A stretch of 64,000 nt of DNA from Crossiella cryophila (GTDB lineage Bacteria; Actinomycetota; Actinomycetes; Mycobacteriales; Pseudonocardiaceae), in the NCBI RefSeq assembly GCF_014204915.1, contig NZ_JACHMH010000001.1, forward strand, positions 1 through 64,000. The letters are read 5' to 3'. Below are positions 27,550-35,750 of the stretch, in pieces. A program made the translations under genes and the position numbers. How positions within the stretch are numbered: the first letter of the stretch is position 1; each line of letters begins with the position of its first letter. The notes below the pieces were generated by a model. That model was not told where the DNA came from. It worked only from the letters and a program-made list of their open reading frames with translations, and searched no databases.

Positions 27550-28980
27550 GTGACTGAATCGTTGGAGTCCGACGTCCGGACCGACAGCAACGGCAACGGC
27601 AACGGGCATGCCCCGCTCAGCCTTGGCACGGCGGCGGCGCGGAACCTGGCGACGACGACCAAGTCCGTCCCGCAGATGCAGGCGATTTCCTCCCGGTGGC
27701 TGCTGAAAGTGCTGCCCTGGGTGGAGGCCAAGGGTGGCGCGTTCCGGGTCAACCGGCGGTTGAGCTACACCGTCGGCGACGGCCGGGTCACCTTCACCTC
27801 CAACGGGACCATCCGGGTGGTGCCGCCGGAGCTGGCCGAGCTGCCGATCCTGCGTGGCTTCGACGACGAGGACGTGCTGGTCGCGCTGGCCAACCGGTTC
27901 CAGCAGCGGGAGTACCAGCCCGGTGACGTGATCGTGGAGTTCGGCAACGAGTCGAACGAGGCGTTCCTGATCGCGCACGGCAAGGTCAACAAGCTCGGCC
28001 TCGGCGAGTTCGGCGACCAGACCGTGCTGGGCACGCTGGCCAACGGCGACCACTTCGGCGACGAGTCGCTGACCGACCCGAGCAGCATCTGGGACTTCAC
28101 CGTCAAGGCGGTCACCCCGGTGACCGTGCTGACCCTGGACCAGCGTGCCTACGACGAGGTGGTCGGCCAGTCCCCCGCGCTGCAGGAGCACATCGCGGCC
28201 TTCGTGGCCGGCCAGGCGCGCAAGGGCAACCCGCACGGCGAGGCCGAGATCGAGGTGGCCTCCGGGCATGAGGGCGAGTTCGACCTGCCCGGCACCTTCG
28301 TGGACTACGAGCTGGCCCCGCGGGAGTACGAGCTGAGCGTGGCGCAGACCGTGCTGCGGGTGCACAGCCGGGTCGCCGACCTCTACAACCAGCCGATGAA
28401 CCAGCTCGACCAGCAGCTGCGACTGACCATCGAGGCGCTGCGCGAGCGCCAGGAGCACGAGCTGGTCAACAACCGGGACTTCGGCCTGCTGCACAACGCC
28501 GATCTCAAGCAGCGCATCCACACCCGCTCCGGCCCGCCCACCCCGGACGACCTGGACGACCTGCTCGCCACGGTGTGGAAGGAGCCGGGGTACATCCTGG
28601 CCCACCCCAAGGCGATCGCCGCCTTCGGCCGGGAGTGCAGCAAGCGCGGCATCTACCCGACCGCGATCGACATGAACGGCAACAAGGTGCCGTCCTGGCG
28701 CGGGGTGCCGATCCTGCCCTGCAACAAGATCCCGGTCACCCAGAACAACACCAGCTCGATGATGCTGCTGCGCGTCGGCGAGCACAACCAGGGTGTGGTC
28801 GGCCTGCACCAGACCGGCATCCCGGATGAGTACCAGCCGGGCCTTTCGGTGCGGTTCATGGGGATCAGCGAGAAGGCGATCATCTCCTACCTGGTGAGCG
28901 CCTACTACTCGGCCGCGGTGCTGGTGCCGGACGCGCTGGGCATCCTGGAGAACGTGGAACTCGGCCGCACCGATGGCTGA
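27550..28980 (+). CDS. Family 2B encapsulin shell protein 1 (cyclic-nucleotide-domain insertion)
   Basis: 476 residues. An N-terminal arm (1-90, with SVPQMQ and LPWVEAKGG), a Crp-like cyclic-nucleotide-binding fold (about 97-218) and a C-terminal HK97-type shell domain. The shell domain has [32 protein letters not shown], an [14 protein letters not shown] block and a C-terminal [15 protein letters not shown] region. The CNB phosphate cassette reads [13 protein letters not shown] and lacks the usual Arg, so nucleotide binding is doubtful. Despite the CNB domain there is no helix-turn-helix, so it is not a Crp regulator. In bacterial 2-methylisoborneol operons, genes of this type (called cnb) flank the methyltransferase and cyclase. 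GTG 27550 is chosen because a GGTGGTG element lies 6 nt upstream and is conserved at shell gene 2. Confidence 0.88.
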
Positions 28981-30067
28981 CCAGCCCTTCGAACTGCCTG
29001 ACTTCTACGTGCCGCACCCGGCACGGTTGAACCCGCATCTGGAATCGGCGAGGGCGCACGACAAGCGGTGGGCCTTCGAGATGGAGATGATCGGGCCGAC
29101 GAAGGACGGCGGACCGGAGATCTGGAGCGAGGCCTACTTCGACGGCATGGACATGGCCGGGCTGTGCGCCTGGGCGCATCCGGACACGCCCGGCGACCGG
29201 CTCGACATCGTGACCGACTGGTACACCTGGGTCTTCTACTTCGACGACCACTTCCTGGCGTTGTTCAAGAGGACCAGGGACCAGCAGGGGGCCAAGGCCT
29301 ATCTGGACCGGCTGATGGCCTTCATGCCGCTGGACCTGTCCGACCCTCCACAGTGGACGAACCCGGTGGAGCGCGGACTGGCCGACCTCTGGCAGCGGAC
29401 CGCACCGCAGATGTCCATGGACTGGCGGAAGCGGTTCGCGGTGAGCACGGAGAACCTGTTGGTGGACTGCGTCTGGGAGTTGGACAACATCGCCAACGAC
29501 CGCATCCCCAACCCGATCGACTACATCGGCATGCGCCGCAAGGTCGGCGGCGCGCCGTGGTCGGCCGGACTGGTCGAGTACACCGAAGGCGCGGAGGTCC
29601 CGGAACGGGTGGCGCACAGCCGCCCGCTCCGGGTCCTCCGGGACACCTTCTCCGACGGGGTGCACCTGCGCAACGACATCTTCAGCTATCAGCGGGAAAC
29701 CCAGCAGGAGGGCGAGGTGAACAACGGCGTGCTGGTCATGGAGACCTTCCTGGGCTGCGACACCCAGCAGGCCGCGGACACCGTCAGCGACATCATCACC
29801 TCCCGGCTCAAGCAGTTCGAGAACACCGTGATCACCGAACTGCCGCCGCTGTTCGCCGAGCACCGGCTGCTGGCCGACGAGCAGATCGCGGTGGCCCGCT
29901 ACGTCAAGGGGTTGCAGGACTGGCAGTCCGGCGGGCACCAGTGGCACCTGCGCTCCAACCGGTACATGAACGAGAACGCGCCGCCGATGCCCGGCCGGCG
30001 GCGGGGCAGCCGGTTCCTCAGCGGGATCGGCACCGGCTCGATCGGCCTTGGCGGTGCGCATGGCTGA
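28973..30067 (+). CDS. Terpene cyclase, germacradienol/geosmin synthase N-domain type
   Basis: 364 residues, one alpha-domain class I terpene synthase. The Asp-rich motif DDHFL is at 91-95 and the NSE triad NDIFSYQRE at 234-242, with a C-terminal RSNRYMNE. These and blocks such as [13 protein letters not shown] and [17 protein letters not shown] match the N-terminal, FPP-cyclising domain of geosmin synthase. The usual second domain is absent. A sesquiterpene product such as germacradienol is therefore inferred. The C-terminus ends in a Gly-rich tail ([17 protein letters not shown]) that may be a shell-targeting signal. The start overlaps the shell gene stop by 8 bp (ATGGCTGA). Confidence 0.85.
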
Positions 30068-34702: not shown

Positions 34703-34703
34703 C

Positions 34704-35750
34704 ATGGCGAGTGCGGAAACAACCCCGGTTCTGGGCGCGGACACCATCGGTGAGGTGCTGGCCTGGAGCCGGGGCATGATCGAGCCCGCGATGCGGGACG
34801 CGGTGGAGGGCCTGCCGCAGTCCATGCGCCGCATCGCCGGCTACCACTTCGGCTGGTGGGACGAGCAGGGCAGGCCGAGCGAGGGCAGCAGCGGCAAGGT
34901 GATCCGCCCGGCCCTGGTGCTGCTGACCGCGGAGGCGGTGGGCGGCATCCCGGCCGCCTCCGTCCCGGCGGCGGTCGCGGTGGAGCTGGTGCACAACTTC
35001 TCCCTGCTGCACGACGACGTGATGGACGGGGACACCACCAGGCGGCACCGGGCCACCGCGTGGAGCGTGTTCGGGCTGAACGCGGCGATCCTGGCCGGGG
35101 ACGCGTTGCTGGCGGTGGCCATGGAGGTGGTGGCCACCAGCAAGCTCCCCGACGCCAAGGCGGCCACCAAACTGCTCAGCGCCGCGGTGCTCGAACTGCT
35201 CGACGGGCAGTTCGCCGACCTGGCCTTCGAGGACCGCAGCGACGTCGACGTGGACGAGTGCCTGGCCATGGCCATCGGCAAGACCGCGGCCCTGCCCAGG
35301 GTGGCCTGCGCGCTGGGCGGCATGTACGGCGGCGGCAGCGCGGAGCAGGTGGCGCACCTGGCCAAGTTCGGCGAGGATGTCGGGCTGGCCTTCCAGCTGG
35401 TGGACGACCTGCTCGGCATCTGGGGCGATCCGGCGGCCACCGGGAAGTCGATCTACTCGGACCTGCAGAACCGCAAGAAGTCGCTGCCGGTGGTCTTCGC
35501 GCTGACCTCCGGCACCCCGGCGGCCCGCGACCTGGCCGCGCTGTATCAGCGCACCGATCCGCTGGACACCGCCGAGCTGGCCCACGCGGCCGCGCTGGTG
35601 GAGGCCGCGGGCGGCCGGGACTGGGCGCAGCAGAAGGCCGATGACCTGCTCGCGCAGGGGCTGGCACACCTGCAGGCCAGCTCACCGCGGTCCAGGGCGG
35701 GCGGTCAACTGACCATGCTCGCTCGATTGATCACCCAGCGAGATCGCTGA
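34704..35750 (+). CDS. Polyprenyl diphosphate synthase (trans-isoprenyl type)
   Basis: 348 residues. The first Asp-rich motif, DDVMD, is at 104-108 (LLHDDVMDGDTTRRH) and the second, DDLLG, begins at residue 234 (QLVDDLLGIWGDP). Short-chain products such as GPP, FPP or GGPP are expected. As the last gene of the operon, 1 bp after shell gene 2, it probably supplies GPP to the methyltransferase and FPP to the cyclases. Chain length cannot be fixed from sequence by eye. An extra GYHFGWWDEQG segment near 46-56 is characteristic of this actinobacterial subgroup. A strong terminator follows 26 bp after the stop. Confidence 0.9.
   Translation: MASAETTPVLGADTIGEVLAWSRGMIEPAMRDAVEGLPQSMRRIAGYHFGWWDEQGRPSEGSSGKVIRPALVLLTAEAVGGIPAASVPAAVAVELVHNFSLLHDDVMDGDTTRRHRATAWSVFGLNAAILAGDALLAVAMEVVATSKLPDAKAATKLLSAAVLELLDGQFADLAFEDRSDVDVDECLAMAIGKTAALPRVACALGGMYGGGSAEQVAHLAKFGEDVGLAFQLVDDLLGIWGDPAATGKSIYSDLQNRKKSLPVVFALTSGTPAARDLAALYQRTDPLDTAELAHAAALVEAAGGRDWAQQKADDLLAQGLAHLQASSPRSRAGGQLTMLARLITQRDR

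Follow-up and report, generated by a model that had tools for sequence, protein, structure and literature searches.

A conserved two-shell encapsulin operon of Crossiella combining geosmin synthase-like cyclases with a predicted 2-methylisoborneol enzyme pair

Operons associating encapsulin shell genes with terpene cyclases (TCs) or polyprenyl diphosphate synthases (PTs) belong to a class already described. In the sections of the papers drawn on here, one survey counts 904 TC operons, 900 PT operons and 165 operons with both, distinguishes geosmin synthase (GS)-like and 2-methylisoborneol (2-MIB) synthase-like cargo classes, and reports a GPTGLGT cargo motif (PMC8346489). A more recent study (2025) describes two-shell TC/PT operons, with TCs placed between Enc1 and Enc2 and a PT downstream of Enc2 (PMC12407261). 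Geosmin clusters comprising cnb or encapsulin genes have likewise been reported (PMC7251104; PMC12224551), as has the cyanobacterial 2-MIB cluster cnbA-mtf-mtc-cnbB (PMC3072421; PMC10580876). Here we analyse a stretch of 64,000 nucleotides of the actinomycete Crossiella cryophila (contig NZ_JACHMH010000001.1; hereafter the window), which corresponds to bases 1-64000 of a single-contig genome of 10.06 Mb. It carries a two-shell operon of this class, the combined enzyme set of which is a conserved variant.

The operon consists of seven co-directional genes of the forward strand, between positions 27535 and 35750. They code, in this order, for a Family 2B encapsulin shell protein made of a cyclic nucleotide-binding domain (CBD) and an HK97 part (Enc1, 27535-28980, counted from the first in-frame TTG, with GTG 27550 as an alternative start); a stand-alone homologue of the GS N-domain (TC_A, 28973-30067); a second class I terpene cyclase (TC_B, 30060-31151, its start taken as ATG 30060); a geranyl diphosphate 2-C-methyltransferase (GPPMT, 31197-32069); a 2-MIB synthase (MIBS, 32077-33237); a second Family 2B shell protein (Enc2, 33278-34702); and a polyprenyl diphosphate synthase (PT, 34704-35750). 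An initial annotation of this DNA had proposed the same set, namely two CNB-HK97 shells, two GS-like cyclases, a GPPMT, a MIB-type cyclase and a polyprenyl synthase, and profile scores confirm all seven. It had also proposed that the genes are separated by tiny gaps or overlaps and followed by one terminator. This holds as well: the successive junctions are of -8, -8, 45, 7, 40 and 1 nt, and an intrinsic-terminator-like hairpin (35777-35815, forward strand; 16-pair stem, 7-nt loop, T-rich tail) comes after PT, with the longest stem of the six terminator-like sites found in the operon region, where 3.6 are expected. A scan of positions 26900-36100 for sigma-70-type promoters returned no match.

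The same arrangement is found in other Crossiella. A search for the gene order in other genomes, which the initial annotation had suggested, found it intact in four of five Crossiella genomes (G000, G002, G003 and G004), together with an eighth gene, coding for a NACHT protein. The fifth genome (G001) reads Enc1-TC_A-TC_B-Enc2-PT-NACHT and has its GPPMT-MIBS pair elsewhere, at a locus where no shell match was found within the 18 kb fetched. That the seven-gene set and its NACHT neighbour are more than a chance assembly follows from this common order and from open reading frames (ORFs) that are free of internal stops in the four genomes, with ratios of nonsynonymous to synonymous substitution rates (dN/dS) between 0.02 and 0.48 (four genome pairs per gene). 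Either relocation or acquisition of the 2-MIB pair may account for this difference within Crossiella: the window GPPMT is 88% identical to that of locus L077, versus 81% to that of the fifth Crossiella, yet a tree with all five Crossiella as one clade is not rejected by the approximately unbiased (AU) test (p = 0.822). A 718-aa frame in G001 looked like a fused TC_A-TC_B, but it runs across TC_A in a different frame and TC_B begins only beyond it, so that we discarded this candidate.

How does this locus compare with its described relatives? It shares with the TC/PT two-shell operons (PMC12407261) an Enc1/Enc2 pair bearing the motifs TVWK and RRRK, cyclases between the shells and a PT directly after Enc2; it departs from them, as there described, by three separate cyclases and a GPP methyltransferase between the shells, thus combining C15-type and C11 enzymes. 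As in the cyanobacterial cluster, a methyltransferase precedes a MIB synthase and two cnb genes flank the pair, and the synthase motifs resemble the cyanobacterial types D(D/G)YYAD and NDLLSVxKD; however, the accounts of that cluster used here name neither a sesquiterpene-type cyclase nor a PT (PMC3072421; PMC10580876). With geoA-cnb-cnb (PMC7251104) and GS-like encapsulin cargo (PMC8346489) it has in common a GS-type cyclase next to cnb or shell genes and peptides of the GPTGLGT type. Unlike in those reports, the N-domain homologue is here a protein of its own, and no GS C-domain motif of the DDYYP type is present in the second cyclase. Among the titles, abstract openings and text passages covered by our literature searches, we found no description of GS-like and MIBS cargo within one two-shell operon. 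The initial view that this exact set had gone undescribed can therefore be kept to that extent, while, as a type, the operon is less of a novelty than that view implied (PMC12407261).

The reading that we favour, and to which we would give about an even chance of being right, is that of a mixed shell enclosing three cyclases. What the sequences show is the identity of the genes, their metal-binding motifs, the conservation of their order and the statistics of the cargo motifs; shell assembly, enzyme loading, substrates and products are inferred. Enc1 and Enc2 would co-assemble to mixed T=1 shells, as we infer from the pair of Streptomyces lydicus (PMC12407261). MIBS would be loaded by the peptide GPSGLGTSAAR at its N-terminus, and diverged versions of this peptide would probably load TC_A and TC_B. 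PT and GPPMT would stay outside, supplying prenyl and 2-methyl-geranyl diphosphates through the shell pores. The enclosed cyclases would then release 2-MIB, a germacradienol-type C15 product (TC_A) and a further terpene (TC_B).

In the C11 branch, GPPMT (NF041943, 531 bits; cut-off 400) adjoins MIBS (f2_encap_cargo2, 467 bits; cut-off 400), which displays the motifs DDLYAD and NDLFSVAKD, and 2-MIB is the predicted product. MIBS belongs to a subfamily of 97 members, in 80 of which the motif is readable; in the motif types listed, covering 79 members, the NSE triad ends in D. In the other subfamily (27 members) it ends in E among the types listed, which cover 25 members. A final D is the cyanobacterial type (PMC3072421), and the window motifs resemble the cyanobacterial ones. 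Against the S. coelicolor structure, the window MIBS reaches 165 bits, and L209, a member of the other subfamily, 256. Cyanobacterial mtf and mtc, when expressed in Escherichia coli, produce 2-MIB (PMC10580876).

Evidence for loading comes from a cargo profile whose training set was made up of 79 GS linker and C-terminal segments (from other GS loci and from locus L072 of the same genome), with no shell or MIBS sequence among them; a score above 12 counts as a strong match, and each protein was compared with 400 shuffles. Among the loci fetched, strong matches were found in 115 of 125 MIBS, in none of 132 GPPMT and in one of 23 PTs, a PT-TC fusion. In the window, the N-terminal motif of MIBS, LAGPSGLGTSAARIAS (32119-32166, forward strand), scores 39.5 and no shuffle reaches this value. 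The C-terminal tail of TC_A holds a degenerate motif (SGIGTGS; 30008-30055, forward strand) that scores 7.8, with 4 shuffles as high, and the best site of TC_B, in its N-terminal tail (30081-30128, forward strand), scores -0.2 (64 as high). PT reaches -3.7 (270) and GPPMT -5.8 (199). Because of these scores MIBS is expected inside the shell, TC_A and TC_B would probably be inside by weakened peptides, and PT and GPPMT are expected outside. The initial annotation foresaw a multi-product C11/C15 compartment. A Family 2B two-shell terpene operon, a 2-MIB pair and sesquiterpene-type cyclases are retained from it; that all three cyclases are enclosed has partial support, the motif of MIBS being intact and those of TC_A and TC_B degenerate.

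Several observations weigh against the enclosure of all three enzymes. The TC_A motif is degenerate across Crossiella (7.8, 1.9, 2.3, 4.6 and 3.1, with 2 to 18 of 400 shuffles as high), and so is that of TC_B (-0.2, 0.3 and 1.7 in the three of five Crossiella scored; 41 to 64 as high). The TC_A tail evolves fast, with dN of 0.15 and 0.25 from residue 334 and dN/dS of about 0.7, double that of the whole gene (0.34-0.36). Furthermore, mtf and mtc sufficed for 2-MIB production in E. coli in the absence of cnb genes, and the cyanobacterium from which they came transcribes cnbA and cnbB separately from mtf-mtc (PMC10580876); the need for a shell and the existence of a single transcript are therefore both uncertain here. 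A serious contender, which we nevertheless tend to doubt, is that MIBS is the only cargo, TC_A and TC_B being transcribed along with it but remaining free, after decay of their targeting peptides in Crossiella. This would account for the distance between the scores of TC_A and TC_B and those of Crossiella MIBS (32.9-39.5), as well as those of TC_A homologues in L120, L121 and L126, which have intact motifs (34.8, 21.0 and 25.7) where Crossiella TC_A has its tail. It fits less well with the TC_A tail still being the best-scoring site of the protein in all five Crossiella, or with the N-tail of TC_B, where GPGMGLTRM is invariant in four Crossiella and dN is only 0.05-0.07 over the first 45 residues. 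The dN/dS of this N-tail is 0.36 and 0.19; for the N-terminal 70 residues of MIBS it is 0.47 and 0.60.

PT deserves separate comment. It is recognized by PF00348 (198 bits), f2_encap_cargo4 (481 bits; cut-off 450) and GGPPsyn_IdsB (353 bits). PT cargo is reported to have a disordered N-terminal domain of 50-100 residues (PMC8346489). The alignment of the window PT to the IdsB model begins at residue 12, which leaves no long N-terminal extension; judging by this alignment and the motif score, disorder itself not having been predicted, PT appears to lack such a domain. The f2_encap_cargo4 model is also above its cut-off on two PTs of the same genome located far from any shell gene. A place inside the shell is therefore unsupported for PT, since its motif score is -3.7, the extension is missing and the cargo model also fits PTs remote from shells.

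The two remaining cyclases each resemble the N-domain of geosmin synthase rather than its C-domain. They match the two-domain GS-like cargo model (735 aa; cut-off 1200) over its first half only, TC_A with 594 and TC_B with 355 bits, and neither has a C-type motif, so that neither unites the N-type and C-type domains of a geosmin synthase. The same genome codes for a two-domain GS-like protein, whose N-domain shares 59% identity with TC_A; against the structure of the S. coelicolor GS N-domain (5dw7), TC_A reaches 471 bits. A quick first tree placed it as sister to GS N-domains, and a careful one inside their clade (100/100). It retains DDHFL, NDxxSxxxE and RY, but DDHFL is followed by A, where in the GS N-domains sampled DDHFL or DDHFV is followed by E. 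We predict a germacradienol-type sesquiterpene cyclase. TC_B scores 278 bits to 5dz2; it carries the Asp-rich motif DDFFDD and retains RY. Its AlphaFold2 model, built from a 39-row alignment, has a mean predicted local distance difference test score (pLDDT) of 86.4 and a query-normalized TM-score (TMq) of 0.85 to 5dz2; as modelled, the protein has a class I fold and an N-tail called disordered (residues 1-41, pLDDT below 50). The closest named relative found is Crossiella sp. S99.2, with a TC_B that is 92% identical, the window's own record perhaps having been left out of the search.

It could be argued that the two proteins are a geosmin synthase split in two, TC_A making germacradienol and TC_B geosmin. 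The position of TC_A in the GS N-domain clade goes in this direction, and so do the fused A-B proteins of L122 and L125, which sit in the corresponding slot; a grouping of TC_B with GS C-domains is left standing by the AU test (p = 0.331), as are those with GS N-domains (0.361) and with other B domains (0.447). We consider this highly improbable: all 15 aligned GS C-domains read DD(Y/F/L)xP where TC_B has DDFFDD, TC_B scores higher with the GS N- than with the C-domain in most genomic pairs (exceptions include L036, L047, L057 and L072), and a complete two-domain GS-like gene exists elsewhere in the genome (L072; 1180 bits, cut-off 1200). The latter (L072:6005-8449) has no adjoining shell gene; the linker and the C-terminus of its product both carry the cargo motif, which makes loading in trans possible. 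Yet another locus of this genome (L071:8648-12221, at about 5.61 Mb) holds a third Family 2B shell gene followed by that of a 720-aa fusion protein, with a polyprenyl synthase at residues 13-336 and a GS-N-like cyclase at 359-715, which ends in an intact cargo motif, LAGPTGLGTATARRLV.

Both shells belong to Family 2B, HK97-type with an inserted CBD: each contains the SrpI-like and cNMP_binding Pfam domains, and encap_f2b (cut-off 400) scores 771 bits on Enc1 and 757 bits on Enc2. Diagnostic motif 1, as defined in PMC12407261, reads TVWK in Enc1 and RRRK in Enc2 (readings taken from the pairs of the window, L067 and L068 only). The shells lie within 10 kb of each other, with TCs between them and a PT downstream of Enc2, and this arrangement, together with the motif, places the locus among two-component Family 2B TC/PT systems. 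Over their full length Enc1 and Enc2 share 66.8% identity, a figure that rises to 72.8% for the C-terminal HK97 part and falls to 47.8% for the CBD part; across all two-component shells the published figures are 70.3% and 48.5% (PMC12407261). The best three matches of Enc2 in the Protein Data Bank (PDB), 9bix, 9bhu and 9bje, are labelled as Crp/Fnr regulators or nucleotide-binding protein; we take them to be Family 2B shells. The CBDs of such shells are reported to bind no cyclic nucleotides (PMC12407261). That Enc1 and Enc2 form two separate shells sorting the C11 from the C15 enzymes is likewise highly improbable, for although their CBD parts have diverged and separate assembly could not be excluded in PMC8346489, the Enc1 of S. 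lydicus does not self-assemble and forms mixed shells with Enc2 (PMC12407261), and the fifth Crossiella retains both shells in an operon devoid of the 2-MIB pair.

Outside Crossiella, GPPMT matches at 1e-100 occur in 168 of 390 Pseudonocardiaceae genomes. We considered 131 distinct GPPMT loci (132 with L148, a refetch of locus L123 of genome G120), the window being excluded from the count, and defined chains as same-strand matches with gaps below 700 nt; shells on the opposite strand, more distant or past a contig end are thus not counted. An extra GS-like cyclase in the GPPMT chain is found in 12 of the 131 loci and in the window, which are those of four Crossiella and of nine out of nine genomes with GPPMT of a genus that we label g14 (L108-L116). 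Like the Crossiella operons, the g14 chains combine two shells, a GS-type cyclase and GPPMT (nine of nine), with PT in eight and MIBS in six; unlike them, their cyclase is a fused two-domain protein, and the in-chain MIBS, placed before GPPMT, is a member of the other subfamily. Five read Enc-TC-TC-MIBS2-GPPMT-Enc-PT and three the same without MIBS (two with a MIBS gene nearby on the opposite strand); the ninth stops at its second shell, at the end of its contig. We regard the g14 operons as candidates for a geosmin plus 2-MIB compartment. Other chains are GPPMT-MIBS1 only (44, possibly including L148), Enc-Enc-GPPMT-MIBS1 (24), GPPMT-MIBS1-Enc-Enc (15) and GPPMT alone (14). Beyond the family, a sample of 394 genomes of the class yielded 35 further ones that match GPPMT; the three of their loci that were fetched read Enc-MIBS2-GPPMT with no extra cyclases.

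Six further loci, chosen from the 81 genomes that match the TC_B profile, have a C15 module between two shells with a PT match behind: A and B are separate ORFs in L107, L120 and L121, a single ORF in L122 and L125, and A is accompanied by a two-domain ORF in L126. In L120 the PT match is split over two reading frames. The same locus, in a g25 genome, codes for a TC_B-like protein (L120:7998-9005) which has lost both metal-binding motifs and kept PSGLGTAA at its C-terminus. The two-shell-plus-PT frame looks like a cassette open to modules of the C15 type, of the C11 type or of both, because Crossiella (with and without the 2-MIB pair) and g14 show differing modules in one frame. The C11 module may have entered Crossiella and g14 separately, a suggestion drawn from the differing MIBS subfamily and gene order.

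The N-arms of the shells resemble the cargo motif GLGTSAARI, in Enc1 (27604-27651, forward strand; score 15.6) and in Enc2 (33338-33385, forward strand; 9.3), where they are the best site of the protein, and in other shells. In 35 of 43 shell ORFs the profile scores highest at the N-arm, and in 10 of the 43 the score exceeds the 99% point of shuffles (7.0), eight of these being from Crossiella. That cargo peptides mimic the shell N-arm is only an idea, because the 43 ORFs are homologues, just these 10 pass that point, and the N-termini of Family 2A are located outside the shell (PMC8346489). Carried further, it leads to a proposal that we think unlikely: C15 modules, whether GS-like, fused A-B or split A + B, would have been slotted together with C11 modules (GPPMT-MIBS or MIBS-GPPMT) into the two-shell-plus-PT cassette at least twice, in Crossiella and in g14, one mixed shell enclosing both pathways, with GLGTSAARI peptides imitating the N-arm and docking at the N-arm site of a neighbouring subunit. 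If true, this imitation would explain the retention of two shell types differing in the order of their N-arms.

As for the neighbourhood, a gene for an NNH1-NACHT-LRR protein (35845-39012) lies directly 3' of the hairpin, in the same place in all five Crossiella; we did not retain it as a member of the operon, for the terminator-like hairpin intervenes. Upstream, on the reverse strand, are two overlapping UvrD-helicase/PD-(D/E)XK nuclease ORFs (20088-26812). Farther away, at 51133-56184 on the reverse strand, a PknG-like kinase ORF is flanked by a VWA-domain ORF and a trypsin-like peptidase ORF.

The Crossiella set bears on two questions, why two shells persist in some Family 2B operons and whether a single encapsulin houses more than one enzyme. 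The genus offers a natural comparison, with four genomes that have the 2-MIB pair in the operon and one that does not, and its cargo peptides, ranging from intact to degenerate, are natural variants suited to loading tests. 2-MIB is an earthy odorant, and this Crossiella is a soil actinomycete. Should such compartments hold back volatile products that inhibit growth, they would be relevant both to the ecology of volatiles and to enzyme packaging.

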